Shown: in pieces, positions 13,770 to 24,823 of the stretch
Numbering within the stretch: the first letter of the stretch is position 1
Layout of the letters: every line of letters begins with the position of its first letter
Assembly (NCBI RefSeq): GCF_024171735.1
Contig: NZ_JAMTCH010000004.1
Coordinates: 682,001 to 746,000 of the forward strand
Source: Prauserella alba
GTDB lineage: Bacteria > Actinomycetota > Actinomycetes > Mycobacteriales > Pseudonocardiaceae
Direction: 5' to 3'
Length of the DNA: 64,000 nucleotides
Program-made: the position numbers and the translations under genes
Notes under the pieces: generated by a model
The model's input: the letters and a program-made list of their open reading frames with translations, nothing else
Told to the model about the DNA's origin: nothing
Databases searched by the model: none

Positions 13770-15167
13770 ATGGCAGAGCAGGAATTCCGGATCGAACACG
13801 ACACGATGGGCGAGGTCAGGGTCCCGGCCGATGCCCTGTACCGAGCCCAGACCCAGCGGGCGGTGGAGAACTTCCCGATCTCCGGAGCAGGGCTGGAACG
13901 CGCTCAGATCAGGGCGCTCGGGCTGCTCAAGGCGGCCTGTGCCAGGGTGAACGCCCGCCTCGGGGTGCTCGACGCCGAGCTGGCCGCGGCGATCGCGAGC
14001 GCGGCCGACGAGGTCGCGGAGGGCCGTCACGACGACCACTTCCCCATCGACGTGTTCCAGACCGGTTCGGGCACGTCGTCGAACATGAACGCCAACGAGG
14101 TCATCGCCACGCTCGCCTCGCGTGCACTGGGCAGGGACGTGCACCCGAACGACCACGTCAACGCCTCGCAGTCGTCGAACGACACGTTCCCGACGACCAT
14201 TCACGTCGCGGCGACCGAGGCCGTCCTCACCGACGTCGTCCCGGCGCTGGAGCACCTGGCCACGACGATCGAGCGGCGTGCGGCCGAGTGGGCCGATGTC
14301 GTCAAGTCGGGGCGCACCCATCTGATGGACGCCGTGCCGATCACGCTCGGCCAGGAGGCGGGCGCGTGGGCCTCGCAGGTCCGGTTCGGCATCGAACGAC
14401 TGCGCAGCGGTCTTCCGCGGCTGGGCGAACTGCCCATCGGCGGCACGGCGGTCGGCTCCGGGTTGAACGCGCCCCCGGGATTCGGTTCGGCCGTGGCCGA
14501 CGAACTCGCCAAGGTGACCGAGCTGCCACTCGTCGAGGCGCGCGACCATTTCGAGGCGCAGGCTTCGCAGGACGGCGTGGTCGAGACCTCCGGGCAGCTG
14601 CGCACGGTGGCCGTGTCGCTGAACAAGATCGCCAACGACCTGCGTTGGCTCGGTTCGGGACCCCGCACGGGCCTGGCAGAGGTGGCCCTGCCGGACCTGC
14701 AGCCGGGGTCGTCGATCATGCCGGGCAAGGTCAACCCGGTCATCCCGGAGGCGACGCTGCAGGTGGTGGCGCAGGTGATCGGCAACGACGCGGCCGTCTC
14801 CTTCGCCGGGTCGCAGGGGAATTTCCAGCTGAACGTGAACCTGCCCGTGATCGCTCGCAACGTGCTGGAGTCCGCGCGGCTGCTGTCGGCCGTGGCGCGG
14901 CTGCTGGCCGACAAGGTGTTCGCGGGCCTGACCGTCAACGCCGAGCGCACGCAGGCCTACGCCGAGGGATCGCCGTCGATCGTGACGCCACTCAACGCCT
15001 ACATCGGCTACGAGGAGGCCGCTGCCGTGGCCAAGCAGGCCCTCAAGGAGCTGAAGACCATCCGTGAGGTCGTGATCGAACGCGGACACGTCGCGCAGGG
15101 CAAACTCACCGAGACCCAGCTCGACGAAGCCCTCGACGTGCTCGGCATGGCACGCGGCGGTAAGTGA
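13770..15167 (+). CDS. fumC: Fumarate hydratase class II
   Basis: Iron-independent fumarase of the TCA cycle, interconverting fumarate and malate. 465 aa. Begins [20 protein letters not shown], typical of actinobacterial FumC. Motifs: [14 protein letters not shown] near 105, [15 protein letters not shown] near 140, and the family signature [11 protein letters not shown] near 320. The frame is open 46 codons further upstream, but that part is not FumC-like. Single gene, followed by a strong hairpin and then by the accessory island. Confidence 0.95.
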
Positions 15168-15170
15168 GCC

Positions 15171-15203
15171 GATCGGGGGCCGCCGCGGTGGCGGCCCCCG
15201 ATC
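15171..15203 (+). terminator. Hairpin terminator after fumC
   Basis: GATCGGGGGCCGCC (15171-15184) and GGCGGCCCCCGATC (15190-15203) form a perfect 14-bp stem with a 5-nt loop, 3 nt after the fumC stop codon. Confidence 0.8.
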
Positions 15204-15207
15204 ACAC

Positions 15208-15288
15208 TCAACGGTTCAGGCTCGACCGGGTGCGCGGCGCCAACGGCAGGAACACCGCGATGAACACCAGCGGCCACGAGCTGCCGCT
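15208..15288 (-). pseudogene. 3' remnant of an ABC-2-type permease-like gene at the island edge
   Basis: 26 codons directly after, and in frame with, the tctA stop codon read as a hydrophobic segment plus basic tail ending in a stop: SSWPLVFIAVFLPLAPRT and about eight more residues. A tail of this kind (WPL..., membrane segment, PLA.R...) ends many ABC-2-type permeases. Codon use is GC-rich like the chromosome and unlike tctA. No start or upstream part exists in the window. I infer that the island replaced the rest of this gene; the family call is tentative. Confidence 0.4.
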
Positions 15289-17265
15289 CTAGATGAGCCA
15301 GCCGACCGGGGCCACCAACTCGGCGAACTGTTCCAGTGCGTAGAGCGCCCCGACGATCGCGGCCACATAGATCACCGCGAAAAGAGGTTTCATCCTGGCT
15401 ACGACGAGGAGAAAGACCAGAGCAAAGACGGCCGTGCCGACATACATGCCGACCAGGAAGACCAGCCATACGAAGGCCAACAGCCACAGGATCGAGACGC
15501 CGACGACTCGCAGCTGCGCGCGGAAAGCTCCTTCGATCCGTCCGACACCGCCATCCCTGCGTACCTGCTGGATGTCTTTGACCAGCGCCACGACTCCGAG
15601 CCCGAGGCCCAGGATGCTGGCCATGTAGGGGAAAAGTTGGCCGTTCGGGGAGAAGTCGGTCGCAAGGATGAAGGCGCCGATGAAGAACAGCATCGAACCC
15701 ACGGTCATGGCCACGCCCACAACGGGCGGAACGTGGATTCCGCTCTCGTCGGCGGCAGCGGAGGCACCCTCGGCCGTTTCCGGGTGCAGCCTCTTGCGCT
15801 TGACGTTCCGGTAGGTGACCACGCCGACGGTGACGATGAGCAACAGTGCGACGACGATGACGAACGGCCGGGTCATCCATTCCCCGGGCTCGAAGGCCGA
15901 GACAGTGATGTAGTAGTACCGCTCCAACGGGACCGCGAGCACGTAGGCGATCAGGAAGGGAGCCCGGGGAATGTCGGAGATCTTGCAAAGCCAGCCGAAG
16001 ATTCCCAAGGCCAGCATGGTGTAGAAGACGCCCAGGCTCAGCGGCTCCTGGAAACCACTCATGAACAGCAGCGGGATCAAGGCCGCGGCCAGGATCGGAA
16101 AGCTGACGAAGCTGAGGCGGGCGAGCGGCCGGGCCATGAAGAAGGCGAAGATCGCACCGACGATCGACGCTATGGCGAAGGCCCAGACAATGAAGTAGAT
16201 GAGGTCGAGGTCCTGCTCGATCAGGTCGGGCCCTGGCTGGATGCCGAAGATCAGCAGCACGCCGAGCAGCAGCGCGAAGGGTGCAGCACCGGGGACGCCG
16301 AACAGCAGGGTCGGGATCAGCGCACCGGACTCGATACCGTTGCTCGCCGCCGAGGGGGCGATCACTCCGCGAGGGTCGCCTTGGCCGAAGCGGCTGCCTT
16401 TGCGGCGGCTTCCGATTGCCTGAGCCTGCCCGTAGGCCAGCCATGCCCCGGCTGTGGCCCCGACGCCGGGGAGGATGCCGGCGCCGACACCGACGCCTGC
16501 CCCGCGGAGGACGTCTCCCTTGTACTTGACGACATCTCGGGCTCCCCTGGCCCAGCCCTTGCCGAGGCTGACGTTCTTGTCGGCTACCGAGCTGCGCTTG
16601 GCGACCAGATGAATGATCTCGGCCACGCCGAAGATGCCCAGTGCAGCCGCGACGAGGCCGATGCCCTCGGAAAGGTACTCCGAACCGAAGGTGTAGCGGT
16701 ATTCGGCCGAAACCGGGGACATACCCACGATTCCCAGGATGACTCCGAAGGCGGCGACCACCAGCCCCTTGACGACATTTCCCTTGGACAGCATGGCCGT
16801 GAGGAAAATGCCGAGCACGATCAGCATGAAGATCTCGGGAGATCCGAAAGCCGTGACCACCGGCCGCGCCACAGGCACGACCAGGGTGAGTCCGATGATG
16901 CCGATGATGCCGCCGACGGCGGATGAAATGAAGCTGGCAGAGAGCGCGCGGCCGCCTTTGCCTTCCTTGGCCATCGTATGGCCGTCCATCAGGAACACTG
17001 CCGCCGACGCCGAACCGGGGATCCCCAGAACCACTGACGTGATGACGTCGGACGTGTGAACCACCGCGACGGCACCGATGATCATGGCGATCGCCTGGTT
17101 CGGTTCGAGCACGAAGACGAAGGGCATCAGGACTGCTACTGCCCCTGTGCCACCCAGCCCGGGGATGACACCGATGACCAGTCCGACGACGACTCCGATG
17201 ATCAGATACAGCAGCATCGCCGGATCAGCGAAGCTGGCCAATGCCGAAGTGGCTGCCTCTAACAT
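15289..17265 (-). CDS. Tripartite tricarboxylate transporter, TctA-TctB fusion
   Basis: 658 aa. Residues 1 to about 500 are the large TctA permease with about 12 membrane segments, including IGVIPGLGGTGAVAVLMPF near 30, the GIPGSASAAVFLMDG loop near 80 and GVGAGILPGVGATAGAWLAYG near 255. Residues about 505-658 hold four more membrane segments separated by a basic loop, fitting the small TctB subunit, which is normally a separate gene of about 150 aa. No separate tctB is present. ATG preceded by AAGGACA. It lies 94 nt downstream of the binding protein gene on the same strand. The cargo is probably a tricarboxylate, inferred from neighbouring tcuA and prpF-like genes. Confidence 0.85.
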   Translation of the reverse strand: MLEAATSALASFADPAMLLYLIIGVVVGLVIGVIPGLGGTGAVAVLMPFVFVLEPNQAIAMIIGAVAVVHTSDVITSVVLGIPGSASAAVFLMDGHTMAKEGKGGRALSASFISSAVGGIIGIIGLTLVVPVARPVVTAFGSPEIFMLIVLGIFLTAMLSKGNVVKGLVVAAFGVILGIVGMSPVSAEYRYTFGSEYLSEGIGLVAAALGIFGVAEIIHLVAKRSSVADKNVSLGKGWARGARDVVKYKGDVLRGAGVGVGAGILPGVGATAGAWLAYGQAQAIGSRRKGSRFGQGDPRGVIAPSAASNGIESGALIPTLLFGVPGAAPFALLLGVLLIFGIQPGPDLIEQDLDLIYFIVWAFAIASIVGAIFAFFMARPLARLSFVSFPILAAALIPLLFMSGFQEPLSLGVFYTMLALGIFGWLCKISDIPRAPFLIAYVLAVPLERYYYITVSAFEPGEWMTRPFVIVVALLLIVTVGVVTYRNVKRKRLHPETAEGASAAADESGIHVPPVVGVAMTVGSMLFFIGAFILATDFSPNGQLFPYMASILGLGLGVVALVKDIQQVRRDGGVGRIEGAFRAQLRVVGVSILWLLAFVWLVFLVGMYVGTAVFALVFLLVVARMKPLFAVIYVAAIVGALYALEQFAELVAPVGWLI

Positions 17266-17359
17266 CTGTTGTCCTTAAAGTACTACGGTTGCGGCGCTAC
17301 AGCCGGTACGGATGAAGGCGGCCACGGAGCCGCATGATCGGTGTGCGAGAGGACAGCTC

Positions 17360-18454
17360 TCAGCTCAGGACCGCTCCGTACTCGTTGGTGAGAAAACCTT
17401 TGGCATAGCTGAGGGCCTGGGGCCTGATGTTCAGGGCCTTGCGGAAGACTTCGACGTTGCCACGGCCCGGCTGCAGTTCGTAGCCGCCCAGCGCTCCCGC
17501 GGCCTCCTTCAGGAACTTCTCGTCCTTGTTCAGCTTCCCGACGAGCTCCGCATACGCGTCGACGAGCTCGTCACTCGTTCCCGCGTTGGACCAGAACCCC
17601 TTCTGGTAGAAGAACGCCGGGGTGACGAATGACTGGTATGCCTCGTAGGCCAGACCCCGGGGATCCTCCCCGTGGATGTCCCGGTAGATCTCTTCGAGCG
17701 TCGGCACGTCCGGCATGTTGGGGTCGCGGACGACCTCGCCGCCTTCGAGAACGCCCACCGAGAAAAGCGGGTAGATCTCCTCGGCTTCGGCCATCGAGGA
17801 GAGCGGCCCGAGCCAGGTGGAGGTGGTCTGGAAGTCGATGTCGGTCTCGCCCCGTTCCAGCGCCAGCCGCGAAGGACCACGTCCTCCGAAACCGAAGACT
17901 CCGGTGACACTGGCTCCCAGGACGTCGAGCGCCAACAACGGTACGAGGTCCAGCCCGGAGGCAGAGATTCCGCCGATCTTGGCGTTACTGCCTGCTTCGA
18001 GGAGGTCTTCCATGGAGCGGATGCCACTGGCGGCATTGGAGTAGAGGATGCCTCCTGTGCCGTGCAGAACCAGCGGCACCATTTCCCGGAAGTCGAATTC
18101 GACGTTCCCCTGCCCCAGCATGCTCTGCAGGTAGGTGGTACCGGAGCTGACGAGGATGTGCCGGCCGTTGTTCACGCCGGCAGCCACATAAGCGTTGGTT
18201 CCCGTCACGGATCCTCCGCCGGCGATGTTCTCGATCTGGTACCGCGAGACATCGTTCTGCAGCTCGGCGAAGTACGGGGAGACGAAGCGGCCCCACGTGT
18301 CGGTGCCGCCTCCCGCGGCATAGGGAACGATGACATCGACGATTCCGGGACCCGAAGGGTTGAATGCGGCCTGCGGCGGGGCGCATCCGGCCAAGCCCGC
18401 CGCGACGCCGAGGGCGCCACCGATGAGGAAGTTCCGTCGGGAGAGTGGATGCAT
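17360..18454 (-). CDS. TctC/Bug-family extracytoplasmic solute receptor (Tat lipoprotein)
   Basis: Substrate-binding subunit of the tripartite tricarboxylate transporter. 364 aa. The N-terminus has a twin-arginine motif SRRNFL at residues 5-10 and a lipobox LAGC with C24, so it should be exported folded by Tat and lipid-anchored. The Bug-fold features IVPYAAGGGTDTWGRFV (near 42) and a later FGFGGRGPSRLALERGE stretch are present. GAGGAG 8 nt before the ATG. Between prpF-like gene and tctA-tctB in one apparent operon, with a stem-loop in the upstream 40-nt gap. Confidence 0.85.
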   Translation of the reverse strand: MHPLSRRNFLIGGALGVAAGLAGCAPPQAAFNPSGPGIVDVIVPYAAGGGTDTWGRFVSPYFAELQNDVSRYQIENIAGGGSVTGTNAYVAAGVNNGRHILVSSGTTYLQSMLGQGNVEFDFREMVPLVLHGTGGILYSNAASGIRSMEDLLEAGSNAKIGGISASGLDLVPLLALDVLGASVTGVFGFGGRGPSRLALERGETDIDFQTTSTWLGPLSSMAEAEEIYPLFSVGVLEGGEVVRDPNMPDVPTLEEIYRDIHGEDPRGLAYEAYQSFVTPAFFYQKGFWSNAGTSDELVDAYAELVGKLNKDEKFLKEAAGALGGYELQPGRGNVEVFRKALNIRPQALSYAKGFLTNEYGAVLS

Positions 18455-18482
18455 CCTTGCATCTCCTCGTTCATATCAGCGT

Positions 18483-18508
18483 AGTACGCCGCACCTATGC
18501 GGCGTACT
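18483..18508 (-). promoter_or_regulatory. Perfect 10-bp stem-loop spanning the prpF-like stop codon
   Basis: AGTACGCCGC (18483-18492), loop ACCTAT, GCGGCGTACT (18499-18508). One arm is the last codons of the upstream gene. No U-tract follows. It lies between the isomerase and binding-protein genes, where an mRNA processing or stabilising hairpin would let the receptor be made in excess; that role is inference. Confidence 0.6.
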
Positions 18509-19589
18509 CCAGCGGGGCGTCGGGAATGTACAGAGTGGCGTCGGCCAAGGTGCGCGCGGTGCGGTCAGCACCGACGATGAGCTCGCCGCCGAAGTCGTCG
18601 GCGAAGGTGACGATGATCCCGGCCGGGGTGCGGAAGCGCAGTTTTCCGGTCGTGCGGCCCGGCTTCACGGCTTGGTGAGGAACCGTCCCCTCGGTGAGGA
18701 CAGCCATCGTCATCGCCACACTGCCGGTGATGGGCATCGCCGGGTGAGGCTTACCCATCGAGAGCATCAGGACCTCGATATCGGCATCTTCGTCCTCGGC
18801 AGGGCCGGCGATTCCGAGCTTGGGGACAGCGCGCTCGGCCGCTTCCGGGGTGGGAGTCATCCCCATGGCGACGGCCCCAGCACGGCGGATCTTGTCCAGT
18901 ACGGAGAGCTTCTCGGTGATCGCGGCCCCGGCCCACTCTGCGTGCGGGAGTCCGGCCAGGCCGGCGGTCTCCGGCGAGAGGATGACCGACGGAGCCCCCG
19001 CGTCGACGATCGAGACGGGATAGTCGACGCCATCGACGGTGAGCACATCGATGCCGGACCCGGTCGGAAGAAGTTTGCCGGTGGTCTTGCCGCCCGGATC
19101 GACGAAGCCCAGACCCACCTCGTGGCCGGGATAGACCGTGCCCGGGATGACGGCACTCGGCTCGGCCGGCAGGGCTCCCCCCGGTGTGGGGACCCGCTGG
19201 ACCACCTTCTGACCGCTGTTGGTGTTGAACGTCCGGACATAGGTCACGTCGTCGGCGAGCTGCACCCATCCGCGCTCCAGCGCGTACAGACCGGCGGTGG
19301 CGGAACAGTTTCCGCAGTTACTGCCCCAGTCCACCGTGAACTCCTCGATGCCGACCTGGGCGAACGTGTAGACGACGTCGAGGTCCGCGTCGGCGGACGG
19401 TTCAAGGATCACCGCCTTGCTCGTGGTCGACGTGGCTCCGCCGACTCCGTCGATCTGCCGCAGGTCCGGACTGCCGTAGACCCGCGGGAGCAGTTGGTCG
19501 GCCGTCAATCCGGTTCCTTCGATGTGCTCCCTCTCGAACACCCAACATTTGCTGGTTCCCCCTCGGACCCAGCTTGCCGAGATCTGCAT
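18495..19589 (-). CDS. PrpF-family isomerase (aconitate / 2-methylaconitate isomerase type)
   Basis: PrpF family enzymes move the double bond of aconitate-like acids (2-methylaconitate cis-trans isomerase, aconitate delta-isomerase, methylitaconate isomerase, oxalomesaconate tautomerase). Family hallmarks: MQISASWVRGGTSKCWVF at the start, GGATSTTSKAVI near 50, the DWGSNCGNCSATAG cysteine motif near 90, and GKPHPAMPITGSVAMT near 280. 364 aa. I use the ATG at 19589 because GAAAGG precedes it by 6 nt; a GTG five codons upstream is possible. First gene of the prpF-tctC-tctAB operon, divergent from lysR. With TcuA nearby, an aconitate-type substrate is likely, but I cannot tell which. Confidence 0.8.
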   Translation of the reverse strand: MQISASWVRGGTSKCWVFEREHIEGTGLTADQLLPRVYGSPDLRQIDGVGGATSTTSKAVILEPSADADLDVVYTFAQVGIEEFTVDWGSNCGNCSATAGLYALERGWVQLADDVTYVRTFNTNSGQKVVQRVPTPGGALPAEPSAVIPGTVYPGHEVGLGFVDPGGKTTGKLLPTGSGIDVLTVDGVDYPVSIVDAGAPSVILSPETAGLAGLPHAEWAGAAITEKLSVLDKIRRAGAVAMGMTPTPEAAERAVPKLGIAGPAEDEDADIEVLMLSMGKPHPAMPITGSVAMTMAVLTEGTVPHQAVKPGRTTGKLRFRTPAGIIVTFADDFGGELIVGADRTARTLADATLYIPDAPLEYAA

Positions 19590-19646
19590 CAGGTGCCTTT
19601 CCACACTGTCCGGTATCGCGGCACAGCCTCACAGGACCCAAGAATT

Positions 19647-19664
19647 AACACAATGTTCAGTGTT
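19647..19664. promoter_or_regulatory. Inverted repeat in the lysR / prpF-like divergent region
   Basis: AACAC-N8-GTGTT in an AT-rich stretch 58 bp upstream of the isomerase start and 150 bp upstream of lysR. Location and dyad symmetry fit a LysR-type regulator site controlling both directions; not shown. Confidence 0.45.
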
Positions 19665-19813
19665 TGATACATGATTAAGAGTTGCTTCATTCGTCGGCGG
19701 CGGAACCCCTGTTACTTGCGGCCACACGCACCCTGTACATAGCCTCCGAGCAGCCAGATAAAGTAGATTTACAGAAGAGGAACACCTATGAAGTCCTACT
19801 TAAGCGGAGTTCG

Positions 19814-20779
19814 ATGCTGAACCCACAACGACTCGAAGTCCTCGTACGTGTTGCAGAGACCGGCTCCATCACCGCGGCCGCCGACGAGCTCGGCTACACC
19901 CCCTCCGCGGTGTCCCAACAGCTCAAGAAGCTCGAGCGGGAGGCCGGACACCCGCTGGTCCGGCGCCGTCCTCGCGGGATCATCCCCACGGATGCGGGGC
20001 AGATCCTCGTCAGTCACGCGCGCAAGGTGCTGCGGCAGCTGGATGCCGCACAGGCCGACCTTCGCGATCTGGCCGAAGGGAACAGGGGATCTCTGATCGT
20101 GGGAGCCTTCCCCACGATGGCCGCCTCGTTCCTGCCGCGGGTGCTGGAGACATTCAAGTCGCGCTACCCGGCCATCGACCTCTCGGTCTCCAGCGGACGC
20201 TTCGACGAGCTCCTTGAGGATCTCGAACGGGGGCGCTCCCACCTGTGCTTCCTGTGGGAGTACCCGTGGCAGCCGGTCAACATCGAAGGGCTGCGCCTGC
20301 AGGAGCTGTTTCGGGAGGACTCGGTGATCCTGGTCTCGAAGCACCACCCGTTGGCTGACCAGGACGAGATCAACCTCGCACAGCTGCGCGACGAGTCGTG
20401 GATCGTGCGCGCCAACCGCCACCCCGTGGTGGAAGTCCTGGAACGGGCAGCGGAGAAAGCGGGTTTCCGGCCGTCGATCGCCCTCTACGCCAACAACTAC
20501 CAGGAGGCTCAGGCGATGGTGAGTGTGGGGATCGGAGTGGCGATGGCCCCGCGCGGTGCCATCGCCATCCAGCACCCGGACATCCGGGTGCTGACTCTGG
20601 GGGACGAAGCCCCGGTGCGCAATGTGCTGCTCGCCCAGCGGGAGGAAAGGGTCTATTCCCCGGCCGAGGTGGCCTTCCGCTCGGTGCTGATGGAACTGGT
20701 CCGGCAGGACTTCCCGACTGCTGGCCCGTCAGAGGTACGTCCGTCCCCCGAGCCGAGGACCGGGTCTCATTCCTCCTGA
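19814..20779 (+). CDS. LysR-family transcriptional regulator of the tricarboxylate island
   Basis: 321 aa. Winged HTH at residues 1-60 (MLNPQRLEVLVRVAETGSIT, then LGYTPSAVSQQLKKLERE), followed by the two-lobed effector-binding domain from about residue 90 (GSLIVGAFPTMAASFLPRVL). Start chosen at 19814, where the HTH begins and GCGGAG lies upstream; the open frame is 44 codons longer. It is divergent from the prpF-tctC-tctAB operon, the classic position for a LysR activator of that operon; the effector may be the imported tricarboxylate. The 3' end overlaps the convergent AbrB-type gene by 13 bp. Confidence 0.88.
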   Translation: MLNPQRLEVLVRVAETGSITAAADELGYTPSAVSQQLKKLEREAGHPLVRRRPRGIIPTDAGQILVSHARKVLRQLDAAQADLRDLAEGNRGSLIVGAFPTMAASFLPRVLETFKSRYPAIDLSVSSGRFDELLEDLERGRSHLCFLWEYPWQPVNIEGLRLQELFREDSVILVSKHHPLADQDEINLAQLRDESWIVRANRHPVVEVLERAAEKAGFRPSIALYANNYQEAQAMVSVGIGVAMAPRGAIAIQHPDIRVLTLGDEAPVRNVLLAQREERVYSPAEVAFRSVLMELVRQDFPTAGPSEVRPSPEPRTGSHSS

Positions 20780-21306
20780 CCGTTGCCCCTGCCGGCGATC
20801 CATCTGCGGTGGATGGCCTCAGCGGCCCGGAGAATCAGGGGGAGACTGAGCACGACGGTGAGCAGGCGAACCATATGGGCGCCGGTGACCACAGCACCGT
20901 CGAGCCCCAGAGACGCCGCAGTCGCCACCATCTCGCCGACGCCACCGGGCAACAGCCCGAACATGGACTCGCCCGGTTCCATCAGACCCCACGCGGCGAA
21001 GCCCCAGCCGAAGAAGACTCCCACCGCGAGGACGGTGGTCACAGCCAGCACGCCCGGTCCGAAGAAGTGCATGAACTGCCGGAAGACATCGGGACTCAGG
21101 GTGGCCCCGATGGCGGTGCCGATCAGGAGCTTGGCTCCCGAGGTCACCAGGTCGGGAGCCTCCACCTCGAGACCTATGCCTAGGTTGACGACGGCAGCAC
21201 CGACAAGACCTCCGGTCAGCGCCCACAGCGGGATCCGAGCCCAGCGGAAGACCAGCGCCGTCCCCAGGGAACCGGCCATCACCGCGACCAGTGCAACTGA
21301 CTCCAT
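20767..21306 (-). CDS. AbrB-type membrane protein, second half (split gene)
   Basis: 179 aa, about five membrane segments (for example IPLWALTGGLVGAAVVNLG near 25 and FFGPGVLAVTTVLAVGVFFG near 82) and the motif LLPGGVGEMVATAASLGLDG near 118. Matches one repeat of the AbrB/COG3180 membrane family, whose members usually carry two such repeats in one protein of about 350 aa. These proteins were once called regulators but look like transporters. The ATG overlaps the stop of the upstream half (TGATG), so both are probably made as a heterodimer. Function unknown. Confidence 0.72.
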   Translation of the reverse strand: MESVALVAVMAGSLGTALVFRWARIPLWALTGGLVGAAVVNLGIGLEVEAPDLVTSGAKLLIGTAIGATLSPDVFRQFMHFFGPGVLAVTTVLAVGVFFGWGFAAWGLMEPGESMFGLLPGGVGEMVATAASLGLDGAVVTGAHMVRLLTVVLSLPLILRAAEAIHRRWIAGRGNGQEE

Positions 21307-21908
21307 CAGGCGAGCACCGTCAGCAGTATGGGGAGTACCAGGAAGACGAGGGCGAACAGCCGCACCGCGTGGACGGTGAGCACCACTCCGAGCTGGGCCC
21401 CCTTGTCGACAGCCAGTGAGCTGACCTCGCTCAGCCCGCCGGGAGTAACGGTCAGCACAGCCGTGGCGGGGTCGACGCGATAGCGAGACATCAGCAGCGT
21501 GATGAAGACCAGATTGAGGATGCCCAGGGCGAGATAGGCGGCCACCACGGGAAGAGCGACGGCAGCGGTGCTCACCAGCGAGTCCACGGTGAGCATCACC
21601 CCGCTCACGAAACCGATGGCGATGAGGCCCGTCTGGCGCATCGCACGAGGAAAGGTGGCGGGGCGCATCCGCGGAGTAACGGGCTGATTGACCAGACCCG
21701 CGCCGAGCGCACTGCCGAGAAGCATCCCGGCCGGAATCCCCAGGTGCTCGAAGAGGCTGCCCACCACGGCTGCTCCGGCAAGGAGCCGCATCACTCCGAA
21801 CCACTGCCGATAGCGCGGACGTTCCTGTTCGGAGTTCAACCCTCTCCCCTCGCTCTCTGCCCTGACCAGACATACGTGCCTGTTGAGCTCCAGTCGGATA
21901 CTTGGCAT
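21306..21908 (-). CDS. AbrB-type membrane protein, first half (split gene)
   Basis: Up to 200 aa; the membrane part starts near residue 35 (MRLLAGAAVVGSLFEHLGIP), with the repeat motif TPGGLSEVSSLAVDKGAQLG near 155 mirroring the second half. This is the other repeat of the AbrB/COG3180 family. The true start is uncertain: the ATG at 21908 has no Shine-Dalgarno and lies in a repeated operator-like motif, while purine-rich sequence further downstream could serve a GTG or TTG start near 21836-21860. Divergent from tcuA and coupled to the second half. Confidence 0.68.
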   Translation of the reverse strand: MPSIRLELNRHVCLVRAESEGRGLNSEQERPRYRQWFGVMRLLAGAAVVGSLFEHLGIPAGMLLGSALGAGLVNQPVTPRMRPATFPRAMRQTGLIAIGFVSGVMLTVDSLVSTAAVALPVVAAYLALGILNLVFITLLMSRYRVDPATAVLTVTPGGLSEVSSLAVDKGAQLGVVLTVHAVRLFALVFLVLPILLTVLA

Positions 21909-21933
21909 GCTGAACGAGCTTTTGGCATACCAA
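21902..21933. promoter_or_regulatory. Repeated operator-like motif upstream of tcuA
   Basis: TTGGCATGC at 21902 and TTGGCATAC at 21922 are direct repeats 20 bp apart (two helical turns). The second extends to the near-palindrome TTGGCATACCAA, which resembles sites of GntR/FCD regulators. It ends just before the tcuA Shine-Dalgarno. The FCD regulator gene lies at the end of the same operon. Confidence 0.55.
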
Positions 21934-21943
21934 GGGAGTATAG

Positions 21944-23416
21944 ATGTCTACCTATACCGCTGATGTTCTCGTCGTCGGCGCGGGAAACGCCGCGATGTGC
22001 GCAGCGCATGCAGCCCGCGAGGCCGGCAGACAAGTGCTGGTCCTGGAGGCGGCGCCGAGGTCCCAGGCGGGCGGCAACAGCTACTTCACGGCAGGGGCCA
22101 CCCGGATGACCCATGAAGGACTGGAGAGCCTCAAAGACCTGGTGGAGCCCGACGAGCGACACAGCCGCAGCGAGGTGCCGCCCTACTCGAAGGAGGACTA
22201 CGCCGCAGACCTGAAGAAGGTCACCATGGGGCGCAACGATCCGGACATGACCGAGATCCTGACCTCGAACATCTCCGCCGACATGCGGTGGCTCAAGACC
22301 AAAGGGATGCGGTATCGCCTGATGTACGAGCGGCAGGCCTACGAGACCCCCGAGGGGGCCTACCTGTTCTGGGGAGGGCTGCACGTGGGCAATGTCGACG
22401 GAGGTGAGGGCTTGCTCCGTGATCATCTCCGCGTCGCAGAGGAGACCGGCATCGAGATCCTCTACGAGGCCCGAGCCGTGAAGCTGACCGAAGAGGCCGG
22501 TGCTGTCACCGGTGTGACCTTCGAGCGCTTCGGCGAGGAGCACACCGTCCGCGCCGAAGCGACGGTCCTGGGCAGCGGCGGGTTCGAGGCCAACAAGGAG
22601 ATGCGGGCCGAGCACATGGGCGCCGAGTGGCACCACGCCATCACCCGAGGAACCCCCTTCAACACCGGCACCATGCTGCAGGAAGCGCTACGACTCGGCG
22701 CGGCCAAGGGCGGCGACTGGGCCTCCTGCCACGCCACTCAGTGGGACGCCGGCTACGAGGACAACGAGTCCAACTACGAGGTCACCAACCGGCTGACCCG
22801 GCAAAGCTATCCACTGGGTATCATCGTCGATCGCCACGGGAAGCGATTCCTCGACGAGGGCGCAGACTTCCGGAACCTGACCTACGCCAAGTACGGCAAG
22901 GAGGTGCTGATGCAGCCCGGTGCCATCGCCTGGCAGATCTTCGACGCATCACTGCGCCCCATGCTGCGCTCCCAGGAGTACGAAGTACCCGGGGTGGGCG
23001 AGCACGTGGCAGACTCGCTGCAGGAGCTGGCCGAGCAGGCCGGCATCGACCCGGCCGGTTTCGCCGAGACGGTGGAGTCGTTCAACGCCTCCGTCGACAC
23101 CTCCGCCGAGTTCAATCCCAACGTGAAGGACGGCCGCGCAGCGCGCACCGAGCCGCCGAAATCCAACTGGGCCAACCGGATCGCCGAACCGCCCTTCTAC
23201 GCCTATCCCGTCACCTGCGGGATCACCTTCACCTTCGGAGGCCTCAAGGGCGATTCCCGGGCCAGAGTGCTGAAGGAGGACGGCTCGCCCATCCCGCGGC
23301 TCTTCGCCTGCGGTGAGGCACTCGGCGGCCTTTTCAGCGAGAACTATCCGGGCGGCTCCGGCCTGGCGGCCGGGATCGTCTTCGGCCGGATCGCCGGACG
23401 GAGCGCCGCTGCGTGA
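21944..23416 (+). CDS. tcuA: FAD-dependent tricarballylate dehydrogenase (TcuA type)
   Basis: 490 aa flavoprotein of the fumarate reductase/succinate dehydrogenase family. FAD-binding DVLVVGAGNAAMCAAHAARE at the N-terminus; GGNSYFTAGATRM near residue 43; HATQWDAGYEDNESNYEV near 263; C-terminal CGEALGGLFSENYPGGSGLA. In Salmonella TcuA oxidises tricarballylate to cis-aconitate, with TcuB re-oxidising the flavin. No TcuB-like Fe-S membrane protein is encoded in the window. GGGAG lies 5 nt before the ATG. Its stop overlaps the gntR GTG. Cytoplasmic. The exact substrate is inferred from family and from the tricarboxylate transporter beside it. Confidence 0.82.
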   Translation: MSTYTADVLVVGAGNAAMCAAHAAREAGRQVLVLEAAPRSQAGGNSYFTAGATRMTHEGLESLKDLVEPDERHSRSEVPPYSKEDYAADLKKVTMGRNDPDMTEILTSNISADMRWLKTKGMRYRLMYERQAYETPEGAYLFWGGLHVGNVDGGEGLLRDHLRVAEETGIEILYEARAVKLTEEAGAVTGVTFERFGEEHTVRAEATVLGSGGFEANKEMRAEHMGAEWHHAITRGTPFNTGTMLQEALRLGAAKGGDWASCHATQWDAGYEDNESNYEVTNRLTRQSYPLGIIVDRHGKRFLDEGADFRNLTYAKYGKEVLMQPGAIAWQIFDASLRPMLRSQEYEVPGVGEHVADSLQELAEQAGIDPAGFAETVESFNASVDTSAEFNPNVKDGRAARTEPPKSNWANRIAEPPFYAYPVTCGITFTFGGLKGDSRARVLKEDGSPIPRLFACGEALGGLFSENYPGGSGLAAGIVFGRIAGRSAAA

Positions 23417-24030
23417 CGTTCCGCCCCCAGGTCGACGTGGTCTACGAACAGCTGCGCTCGAAAATCCTCGACGGCTCGCTCGAGCAGGGGTACGACCTCC
23501 ATGAGCGGGCAGTGGCTGAACTGGTCGGCACCTCCCGGACCCCGGTCCGGGAGGCGGTCGCCCGGCTGGTGGTCGACGGACTGGCCGAACGTCACGGCCG
23601 ACGCACCAGGGTGACCGTCTGGGACGACGAGAAGACCGGCCAGCTCTACGAGATGCGTGCAGCCCTCGAGTCGGAGGCCTGCCGACTGGCCGCCATGCGC
23701 CGCAGCGAGAGCGTGGTGATGCGGCTACAGGCCTCGGTCGCCGAGCAGCGCAAGCTGGCCGACCCGTCCCCCGTGGCTCGCCGCGACATCAATTACGAGT
23801 TCCACGAGGAGATCTGGCAGGCGAGCGGCAATCCCTTCCTGCTGGAGACCAACCAGAAGTACGGGGTGCAGTCGATGTGCATAGCCCCGACCACGCTGCG
23901 CCACGACGAGCGCTGGAAGACCGCCCTGGACGAGCACGAACGACTCGTGGAACACATCAGCCGACACGAAGCGGGCGAGGCGGCGGCGCTGATGCACCAC
24001 CACCTCGCATCAGCGTTCAGACGGCGTTGA
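23413..24030 (+). CDS. GntR-family regulator, FCD subfamily
   Basis: 205 aa. Winged HTH at residues 5-70 (VVYEQLRSKILDGSLEQGYD, then VGTSRTPVREAVARLVVDGL) and a C-terminal FCD ligand domain from about 75 (YEMRAALESEACRLAAM, with NYEFHEEIWQASGN). FCD proteins often sense organic acids and usually repress. GTG start overlaps the tcuA stop (GTGA), so it is co-translated with tcuA and may autoregulate through the TTGGCATAC repeats upstream of tcuA. Last intact gene of the island. Confidence 0.85.
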   Translation: MTFRPQVDVVYEQLRSKILDGSLEQGYDLHERAVAELVGTSRTPVREAVARLVVDGLAERHGRRTRVTVWDDEKTGQLYEMRAALESEACRLAAMRRSESVVMRLQASVAEQRKLADPSPVARRDINYEFHEEIWQASGNPFLLETNQKYGVQSMCIAPTTLRHDERWKTALDEHERLVEHISRHEAGEAAALMHHHLASAFRRR

Positions 24031-24097
24031 CCACCGCCTGGGTGACCTCCATGGCGCCGTCGCCGGTATCCGGTTCAGCCCTTCCACTCCTTGAAAT
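24017..24097 (-). pseudogene. C-terminal remnant of a metabolic gene at the right island edge
   Basis: A frame of about 26 codons on the minus strand ends with PDTGDGAMEVTQAVVNAV and a stop that lies inside the gntR 3' end. The pattern resembles the last residues of isocitrate/isopropylmalate/tartrate dehydrogenases. The frame is closed upstream by a stop at 24098-24100, and the next 80 bp are AT-rich, non-coding-looking DNA. Family call is weak. Confidence 0.28.
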
Positions 24098-24244
24098 TCA
24101 GCAGGAATGAACAACATCCTCATTCGAACGATGATGAATTCCTTCCGGCGGATATTTCGGTACCGAACCGGGTATCAGCTTTGCAAGACCTCGAACGCCG
24201 GCCGACCACGGCTCGACGACTCAGCGGAGCATCGGCGGCCCAGT

Positions 24245-24823
24245 TCAGAGCGCGGCGTCGAGCAGCTGCCGCGCGGCGTCCCTGGCTCCGGCGACCGCCC
24301 CGGGGACGACGTCGACCGAGGCCGCGACGGCGGCGCCTTCGAACAGCATGAACAGTGATGCCGCGAGTTTGCGCGGATTGCGCGCGCCGGTGTCGCGCAC
24401 GAGCTGCCGCAGGTAGTCGAGCACCCACTGCTTCTCGTCGCCGATGGCGGGGCGTGCGGGATGGTCGGGATCGGGAAGCTCGGCCAGCGCGTTGACGAAC
24501 GCACACCCGCGTGGGTTCTCCGCGGCCATCCAAGATTCCAGGGCATCGAACATCAGCAGCACCCGGCGCCGGGGTCCGAACCGGCCCGGCTGTTCGACGA
24601 CCGCGGTCACGTGCTCCCGCCATCTGGCGTCCCTGCGTTCGAGGTACAGCCGAACGATGACGTCCTTCGAACCGAACCTGTCGTAGAGCGTCTTCTTGGT
24701 GACCCCCGCCTCCGCGGCGATCATGTCCACGCCCACGGCGTGGATGCCCTTGTCGTAGAACAGGTTCTCCACGACCTCGAGCACCCGCTCTGCCGCGGGC
24801 GTCATCGCCGACTGTTCGGTCAT
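24245..24823 (-). CDS. TetR/AcrR-family repressor
   Basis: 192 aa. The N-terminal HTH is clear: RVLEVVENLFYDKGIHAVGV, then EAGVTKKTLYDRFGSKDVIV (residues about 13-56). The C-terminal ligand domain includes ENPRGCAFVNALAELPDPDH. Divergent from the EamA-type exporter gene, with a dyad GTATAG-N9-CTATAC between them, so it probably represses both itself and the transporter. The inducer cannot be told from the sequence. Confidence 0.88.
   Translation of the reverse strand: MTEQSAMTPAAERVLEVVENLFYDKGIHAVGVDMIAAEAGVTKKTLYDRFGSKDVIVRLYLERRDARWREHVTAVVEQPGRFGPRRRVLLMFDALESWMAAENPRGCAFVNALAELPDPDHPARPAIGDEKQWVLDYLRQLVRDTGARNPRKLAASLFMLFEGAAVAASVDVVPGAVAGARDAARQLLDAAL

Follow-up and report, generated by a model that had tools for sequence, protein, structure and literature searches.

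Gene content of the island

We analysed a window of 64,000 nucleotides from Prauserella alba (NCBI RefSeq assembly GCF_024171735.1, contig NZ_JAMTCH010000004.1, positions 682,001 to 746,000 of the forward strand). Positions below are those of this window, unless a locus (L number) is given. At about 15.29-24.03 kb the window carries an island of eight genes, which include a tripartite tricarboxylate transporter (TTT), a PrpF-family isomerase and a flavoprotein related to the tricarballylate dehydrogenase TcuA. The reading frames are real and intact. The gene order and identities were confirmed by matches to Pfam and NCBIfam models, supplemented by a profile and a predicted fold. A sequence-only reading of this DNA had named the same families (TctA-TctB fusion, TctC, PrpF, LysR, AbrB, TcuA-type and GntR/FCD), and these assignments hold. 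The genes are as follows.

15289 to 17265, minus strand: tctAB fusion, TTT permease (PF01970, E 4.7e-112; TctB tail sub-threshold)
17360 to 18454, minus strand: tctC, lipoprotein solute-binding protein of the twin-arginine translocation (Tat) type (profile match to RPA4515, BugD and MatC; fold match to TphC, Bug27 and BugD)
18495 to 19604, minus strand: prpF-family isomerase/tautomerase (PF04303, E 2.1e-77)
19814 to 20779, plus strand: lysR regulator, divergent from prpF (PF03466 and PF00126)
20767 to 21306, minus strand: abrB2, membrane protein with a single AbrB repeat (TIGR03082, 104.6 bits, above the cut-off of 94.7)
21306 to 21908, minus strand: abrB1, membrane protein with a single AbrB repeat (PF05145, 77.2 bits, above the cut-off of 29.2)
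21944 to 23416, plus strand: tcuA-like dehydrogenase dependent on flavin adenine dinucleotide (FAD) (NF006130, 539.6 bits; placed by trees outside the TcuB-partnered group)
23413 to 24030, plus strand: gntR/FCD regulator (PF07729 and PF00392)

The gaps between prpF and tctC (40 bases) and between tctC and tctAB (94 bases) are short, and these three genes likely form one operon. The start of the gntR/FCD gene overlaps the end of the tcuA-like gene by 4 bases.

The abrB genes had been described as a split AbrB-type protein. They are instead two intact genes with an ATGA overlap, each encoding one AbrB repeat, and neither protein has the two repeats in one chain that define the TIGR03082/PF05145 duplication family. 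The abrB2 product passes the cut-offs of both the Pfam AbrB model and TIGR03082, and the abrB1 product passes PF05145 but stays below the TIGR03082 cut-off (78.0 bits). Other actinobacterial loci likewise encode AbrB by two genes, and on the alphaproteobacterial plasmids inspected a single fused gene encodes it (L117:9342-10412; L127:4777-5832). The predicted structure of the abrB2 product had a predicted template modelling score of 0.44 and gave no PDB match at 1e-3.

Patchy distribution and horizontal transfer

The search for this gene set in related genomes, as proposed with the sequence-only reading, was carried out in seven genomes of the genus comparison, that of the window and six others (G001 to G006, among them Saccharomonospora sp. 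CUA-673, G001; P. rugosa NRRL B-2295, G002; and P. halophila DSM 44617, G005). The island was present in four of the seven (the window, G001, G002 and G005), and at three different positions. In G001 and G002, its neighbours are fumC on one side and a drrA-drrB-like exporter cassette on the other. In the window it is flanked by a permease remnant of 26 codons and by tetR, and in G005, where abrB is missing, it is found beyond a ligase gene. In G003, G004 and G006 it is absent from the fetched fumC region, and genome-wide no tctAB match above 31% identity was found at the threshold used. An exporter pair occupies the space between fumC and tetR in G004, G005 and G006, and in G003 the two genes are about 180 bases apart. 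The island of the window displaced an ATP-binding cassette (ABC) exporter cassette, leaving about 26 permease codons behind.

The history of the island was further analysed at four-fold degenerate sites of codons with identical amino acids. Between the window and G002, agreement was 60% in fumC, tetR and eamA and 55% in the ligase gene, and it was 69-80% in the eight island genes. In the same core genes, the window and G005 agreed at 65-71%, and in the six island genes that they share, at 28-39%. A vertical history does not give both patterns. The island of the window was therefore exchanged with a lineage like P. rugosa, and the version in G005 has another history. The island is horizontally acquired, and the earlier claim of an accessory island is borne out by the patchy presence, the three positions and the incongruence between island and core genes.

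Recurrence of the gene combination

Of 390 family genomes, 13 (including that of the window) had a TctAB match of at least 44% identity, as did two of 394 class genomes besides it. Twenty loci were selected by their TctAB (stretches of 12-22 kb; the TctAB of L055 is only about 40% identical). Matches were obtained to tctC in all 20 loci, to prpF in 18, to lysR in 15, to the tcuA-like gene in 14, to gntR in 12, and to abrB and an isocitrate/isopropylmalate-type dehydrogenase gene in nine each. Twenty stretches containing weaker TctA homologues (32-36% identity, chosen from a longer list) served as controls; prpF, tcuA and abrB were found in none of them, lysR in three and gntR in two.

Related clusters were also found in more distant genomes. 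A plasmid of Paracoccus marcusii (L117) carries TctC-TctAB-PrpF, TcuB-TcuA-GntR and AbrB, and a Pseudosulfitobacter plasmid (L127) carries TctAB-PrpF-Usp-2-hydroxyacid dehydrogenase, AbrB and GntR-TcuA-TcuB. In Shinella, TcuAB, AcnA, PrpF, GntR and AbrB are encoded by neighbouring genes, and Hydrogenophaga has the gene run TctC-TcuA-LeuC-LeuD-TctC-PrpF. In the Arthrobacter cluster, AcnA and a member of the isocitrate/isopropylmalate dehydrogenase family are also encoded. The gene combination noted in the sequence-only reading is a recurrent theme and not unique, and its earlier description as unusual was an over-reading, since it recurs across phyla.

One cluster, that of Arthrobacter sp. 260 (L018:11984-21664), holds two tcuA-like genes, a 2-hydroxyacid dehydrogenase gene, an isocitrate/isopropylmalate-type dehydrogenase gene, acnA and two abrB genes. 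It is perhaps directed at a larger or hydroxylated tricarboxylate.

The transporter and the PrpF-family isomerase

The composition of a TTT system was found in the island. The TctA domain of TctAB is above the model cut-off, and the TctB tail scores 23.5 bits against a cut-off of 29.1. TctC had no Pfam or NCBIfam match at 1e-3. An eight-sequence profile, however, matched solved binding proteins of the Bug/TctC type (best E 2.3e-9). In addition, the 17 best PDB matches of the predicted TctC fold (predicted local distance difference test score 80) were binding proteins of this type, which we take to belong to TTT systems throughout. They include TphC, TBP, Bug27, BugD, MatC, Polaromonas TctC and RPA4515; one of them, PDB 2dvz, carries only the label 'periplasmic transporter'. 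An RR motif and an LAGC lipobox are visible in TctC, and the match to the Pfam TAT model is weak (E 0.061). In Saccharomonospora sp. CUA-673, tctAB was recovered as three tblastn segments with frame changes (L045:4417-6415, also L016:10001-11999), which reflects either a decayed gene or assembly errors.

The PrpF-family protein retains the catalytic residues of SoPrpF. Its K63 and C97 align with K73 and C107 of the SoPrpF chains, and the lysine and the cysteine are kept in all 29 rows of the PrpF alignment. According to PMC5690661, SoPrpF has aconitate isomerase activity, trans-aconitate occupies the active site of the wild-type structure, and roles are given for K73 and C107. In a tree of these 29 rows (a Bradyrhizobium row was left out), the five island proteins and those of four loci in which a LysR gene is divergent from PrpF-TctC-TctAB form a group supported at 99/99, and this group lies apart from the AcnD-linked PrpF proteins and from the GalD/YbhH group.

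Proposed function of the island

The layout of the island resembles that of tarR-tarAB, the proven trans-aconitate assimilation system of Bacillus velezensis FZB42, where, as described in PMC11495376, a LysR gene is divergent from the isomerase gene across a gap of 173 bp. Like the island, tarR-tarAB has a PrpF-family isomerase, a divergent LysR gene and an importer gene in the isomerase operon. The importer of tarR-tarAB is the major facilitator superfamily protein TarB, whereas the importer genes of the island are tctC and tctAB. The island, unlike tarR-tarAB, further contains the TcuA-like dehydrogenase, the GntR/FCD regulator and, as often in such loci, AbrB genes.

On comparison of these systems, we propose that the horizontally exchanged island would be a catabolic cassette in which the trans-aconitate module of tar has a TTT importer and is extended by a dehydrogenase for saturated tricarboxylates. 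We give this reading a probability of roughly one half. TctC would capture an aconitate-type acid outside the cell, and TctAB would import it. PrpF would convert double-bond isomers into one another, in all likelihood trans- into cis-aconitate, and so supply aconitase and the tricarboxylic acid (TCA) cycle. The LysR protein would sense the acid and activate prpF-tctC-tctAB. As a second entry, the TcuA-like enzyme may oxidise tricarballylate or a closely related saturated acid to an aconitate-type acid, and its electrons would pass to a carrier other than TcuB, possibly electron transfer flavoprotein (ETF). The GntR protein may repress tcuA at an operator overlapping the tcuA promoter. The aconitate route is favoured because the catalytic residues of PrpF are kept, because the divergent lysR-prpF layout is like that of tarR and tarA, and because tcuAB, aconitase-family genes or genes of the isocitrate/isopropylmalate dehydrogenase family occur in homologous clusters. 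The route of a transporter and two enzymes leading to aconitate, as envisaged in the sequence-only reading, is thus plausible; the TcuA label in it is a separate matter, considered below.

Several facts weigh against the proposed route. The PrpF-family protein is below the cut-offs of both curated PrpF-family models, and the family covers several substrates. The TcuA-like protein fails TIGR02485 (284.5 bits against a cut-off of 372.55), and in two trees five TcuB-partnered TcuA proteins form one side of a 100/100 branch with the window protein outside (in the second tree the long-branch rows L052 and Pliao_L091 were dropped, and both grouped sets were recovered again). Since TcuA-like relatives neighbour phosphosulfolactate-synthase-like, aldolase and PrpD genes, other acids are possible substrates. 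ETF genes adjoin the tcuA-like gene in two loci only. Among the 20 TctAB-selected loci, the prpF match of L054 is a separate YbhH-like gene more than 4 kb away. The same queries missed tctC in all 20 control stretches, so that distant homologues may escape them. Finally, the matches listed (40 and 60, overlapping, of 331 matching plasmid records) include no Bacillus row for a direct comparison with TarA or TbrA.

Some of these points would fit another branched or substituted acid, such as an aconitate homologue or a 4-oxalomesaconate-like, itaconate-type or mesaconate-type acid, with PrpF as its tautomerase and the TcuA-like protein as its dehydrogenase. The 4-oxalomesaconate tautomerase model gives PrpF a slightly better score than the PrpF model does (215.7 and 189.6 bits, both far below cut-off). 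Some TcuA-like relatives lie near a gene for 4-carboxy-4-hydroxy-2-oxoadipate aldolase or a phosphosulfolactate-synthase-like gene. The LysR protein, too, is closest, among five compared, to one encoded beside genes for a coenzyme A (CoA)-transferase and a CoA-ester lyase (46% identity), a further point against the aconitate route. The island, however, has no aldolase, CoA-transferase or hydratase gene. The product should therefore enter central metabolism directly, for which cis-aconitate is the best fit, and we consider another acid unlikely.

In another reading, the cassette would serve for export or detoxification of an acid, on the model of tbrAB, which produces trans-aconitate and exports it, and AbrB would be the partner in export. 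This would be consistent with the in vitro preference of known aconitate isomerases for trans-aconitate formation (given in PMC11495376) and with the recurrence of AbrB membrane proteins in the TctAB-selected loci. TTT systems that depend on a binding protein are, however, importers by type, and a catabolic role suits both the TcuA-like dehydrogenase and the GntR/FCD regulator. Export therefore seems very improbable.

The authors of the trans-aconitate study (PMC11495376) state an urgent need to identify further importers. The island names a specific candidate, namely a TTT system in a putative operon with a PrpF-type isomerase. Among the papers searched, none combined 'tricarballylate dehydrogenase' with 'tripartite tricarboxylate', and no such gene cluster appeared in the titles or opening lines of abstracts on tricarballylic acid and fumonisin. 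PrpF and TTT are mentioned together in two papers, in one of which (PMC5373536) PrpF belongs to the methylcitrate cycle and two TctC genes lie further along the same cluster. We regard the island as a variant of known carbon-uptake systems and not as an entirely new kind. A soil-type actinobacterium most likely uses it for aconitate- or tricarballylate-like acids. Both acids, aconitate and tricarballylate, derive from plants, the rumen and mycotoxins.

The TcuA-like flavoprotein and its possible electron acceptor

The TcuA-like protein passes NF006130 (PRK08274; 539.6 bits against a cut-off of 369), the name of which is 'tricarballylate dehydrogenase'. It is 34-37% identical to the five TcuB-partnered TcuA proteins and 42-48% identical to seven proteobacterial and deinococcal relatives whose fetched regions carry no TcuB annotation. 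Given its low identity to the TcuB-partnered proteins and its place outside the 100/100 group, labelling it TcuA was an over-reading. The NF006130 name for 21944-23416, which TIGR02485 does not give, is likely an over-propagated annotation. According to a reference title in PMC10468695, TcuA of S. enterica converts tricarballylate to cis-aconitate. For the window enzyme, tricarballylate is a plausible but only putative substrate.

The TcuB model TIGR02484 had no match in the genome of the window (1e-3) or in any of the 390 family genomes (1e-10), and it does recognise the TcuB of P. marcusii (331.6 bits). Outside the family, the absence of TcuB in relatives refers to the annotated region where examined. 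Like the island, the enterobacterial tcuRABC cluster (for example L124) combines an importer with a LysR regulator and a flavoprotein of the TcuA family, but the island has neither TcuB nor TcuC. The TcuA-like protein is 34% identical to the TcuA of an E. coli plasmid and outside its group, and the LysR protein is 27% identical to TcuR. The difference from the enteric set that had been noted earlier is upheld, with a tripartite importer (TctAB and TctC) in the island and no TcuB detected in the genome. The P. marcusii plasmid is similar to the island in its permease of TctAB length (36%), TctC (36%), PrpF (32%) and GntR (33%), and the AbrB and TcuA families also occur together there. The P. 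marcusii and Pseudosulfitobacter clusters, unlike the island, contain TcuB, a TcuA of the TcuB-partnered group and AbrB as one fused gene, and the P. marcusii PrpF, unlike that of the island, passes the 4-oxalomesaconate tautomerase model.

In Cryobacterium sp. Y50, etfB-etfA lies directly before the tcuA-like gene in the same direction (L019:17239-20526). On a Bradyrhizobium plasmid, ETF genes adjoin a tcuA-like gene with no annotated tcuB in the fetched region (L112:23509-26835). The ETF-model matches in both loci are clear, yet below the curated cut-offs. The arrangement suggests ETF as a possible alternative electron acceptor for the TcuA-like enzyme. In a bolder and doubtful proposal, the TcuB-less relatives might be a distinct flavoenzyme group that uses ETF in place of TcuB to oxidise acids of the tricarballylate type. 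Its product would be the fumarate-like (trans) isomer of aconitate, and the co-encoded PrpF would be needed to obtain cis-aconitate. With the TTT importer and a heteromeric pair of single-repeat AbrB membrane proteins, it would form an undescribed, horizontally mobile system of tricarboxylate assimilation in actinobacteria. As the comparison illustrates, relatives that lack TcuB are also given the name TcuA. AbrB-family membrane proteins repeatedly accompany TTT/TcuA clusters and travel with them.

Candidate operators and the linkage of tcuA to the probable isomerase operon

Two conserved elements were found by alignment of five island loci.

19644 to 19657, no strand assigned: candidate LysR-type operator ATTAACACAATGTT in the lysR-prpF intergenic region (CAATGTT invariant in five of five loci)
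21902 to 21933, plus strand: conserved block TTGGCATG...TTGG[CT]ATACC upstream of tcuA

The lysR-prpF gap of 209 bp contains the first element as a block conserved in all five loci. In the second, TTGGCATG and TTGG[CT]ATACC are kept in all five loci although the upstream gene differs (abrB1 or lysR), and the exact palindrome TTGG[CT]AT[AG]CCAA is present in three. The block is a candidate promoter overlapped by a palindrome of the GntR/FCD type, the second half of which would overlap the -10 region, as expected of a GntR repressor site.

These separate candidate operators of the prpF and tcuA units would be in keeping with a different view. In this view, trans-aconitate (or citrate/aconitate) is the only substrate, and the TcuA-like flavoprotein, as an independent passenger, has some other acid as its substrate. 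The loci with the closest PrpF group (L052, L053, L066 and L067) share the divergent layout of the island, with a LysR gene facing PrpF-TctC-TctAB-Usp, but contain no close tcuA, abrB or gntR match in the fetched region, except L052 (35% for a tcuA-like and 31% for a gntR match). Conversely, tcuA-like genes occur without a prpF match in the fetched stretch in ten of ten loci (L056 to L065). In the loci without abrB, however, lysR, tcuA and gntR are co-directional, with lysR-tcuA gaps of 49 nt in Nesterenkonia and 48 nt in P. halophila, and start from the same divergent region as prpF-tctC-tctAB. This layout ties the six genes into one unit. Together with the tcuA-like gene found near TctAB in 14 of the 20 selected loci, it makes an independent passenger improbable.

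Boundaries and composition

The features at the edges of the island are as follows.

13770 to 15167, plus strand: fumC, core gene and left boundary (TIGR00979, fumC_II, 542 bits, below the cut-off of 664.75)
15171 to 15203, plus strand: terminator-like hairpin 3' of fumC, read from the sequence (perfect 14-bp stem, 5-nt loop, without a T run)
15208 to 15288, minus strand: 3' remnant of a DrrB-like ABC permease, about 26 codons and a stop (tblastn to the G001 and G002 loci; blastn to the G001, G002, G004, G005 and G006 loci)
24031 to 24244, no strand assigned: right-end filler, G+C 0.59
24245 to 24823, minus strand: tetR, intact core gene and right boundary (192 aa; 96% to G006 and G003 over its full length)

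The fumC gene is 91-97% identical in all six other genomes of the genus comparison. Of the terminator that had been assigned to it, the perfect hairpin is present and the T run is absent. The left junction lies between the permease remnant and the tctAB stop. The DrrB-like permease is truncated in the window and complete in relatives; in G006 and G004 the full permease matches TIGR01247 below the cut-off, and the neighbouring ATPase passes TIGR01188 (DrrA model). On the right, the sequence resembles that of island-free relatives again from about 24233-24245 onwards. The DNA of 24031-24244 gave matches of 24-46 bases in four of 60 genomes besides its own, and nothing longer than 36 bases outside its own genome among 131 loci. 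Broken gene ends had been reported at both edges, and that of the left edge is real; no broken gene was found at the right edge, which has short weak matches and an intact tetR, the boundary gene named earlier.

The idea that the right edge is what is left of an isocitrate/isopropylmalate-type dehydrogenase gene was considered and rejected. The 23-residue reading near 24031-24100 was no better than shuffles, which scored as well in 244 of 1000 cases for L017, 851 of 1000 for L018 and 172 of 1000 for L019, and the two DNA matches inspected (L130 and L131) gave no support. Flanking direct repeats as an insertion trace were likewise rejected, the longest shared word being 9 bases, as by chance (shuffle mean 8.3). 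No integrase gene was recognised among the open reading frames (ORFs) and family-model matches of the island.

G+C content at third codon positions (GC3) and codon adaptation were compared with 286 ORFs of this genome, drawn from 20 stretches, of which 19 lie on the contig of the window. GC3 of the island genes is 0.795-0.868 against a background of 0.859 +/- 0.060, which places the eight genes at the 11th to 48th percentile. The lowest codon adaptation among them is that of abrB1 (3.5th percentile). Total G+C is about 0.62-0.69 in the island and about 0.69-0.73 in most flanking windows. The less GC-biased codon use seen in the sequence-only reading is thus a real shift, but the composition signal alone is weak evidence for acquisition.

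DrrAB-like exporter pairs were also observed in relatives near fumC or between fumC and tetR (L040:4323-6109, L041:4413-6265, L044:4554-6544 and L045:13405-15390). The genome of the window has a second fumC-like gene (G000:C2:320804-322135, L032) with 46% identity, whereas the second matches in the other six genomes of the genus comparison reach only 28-29%.

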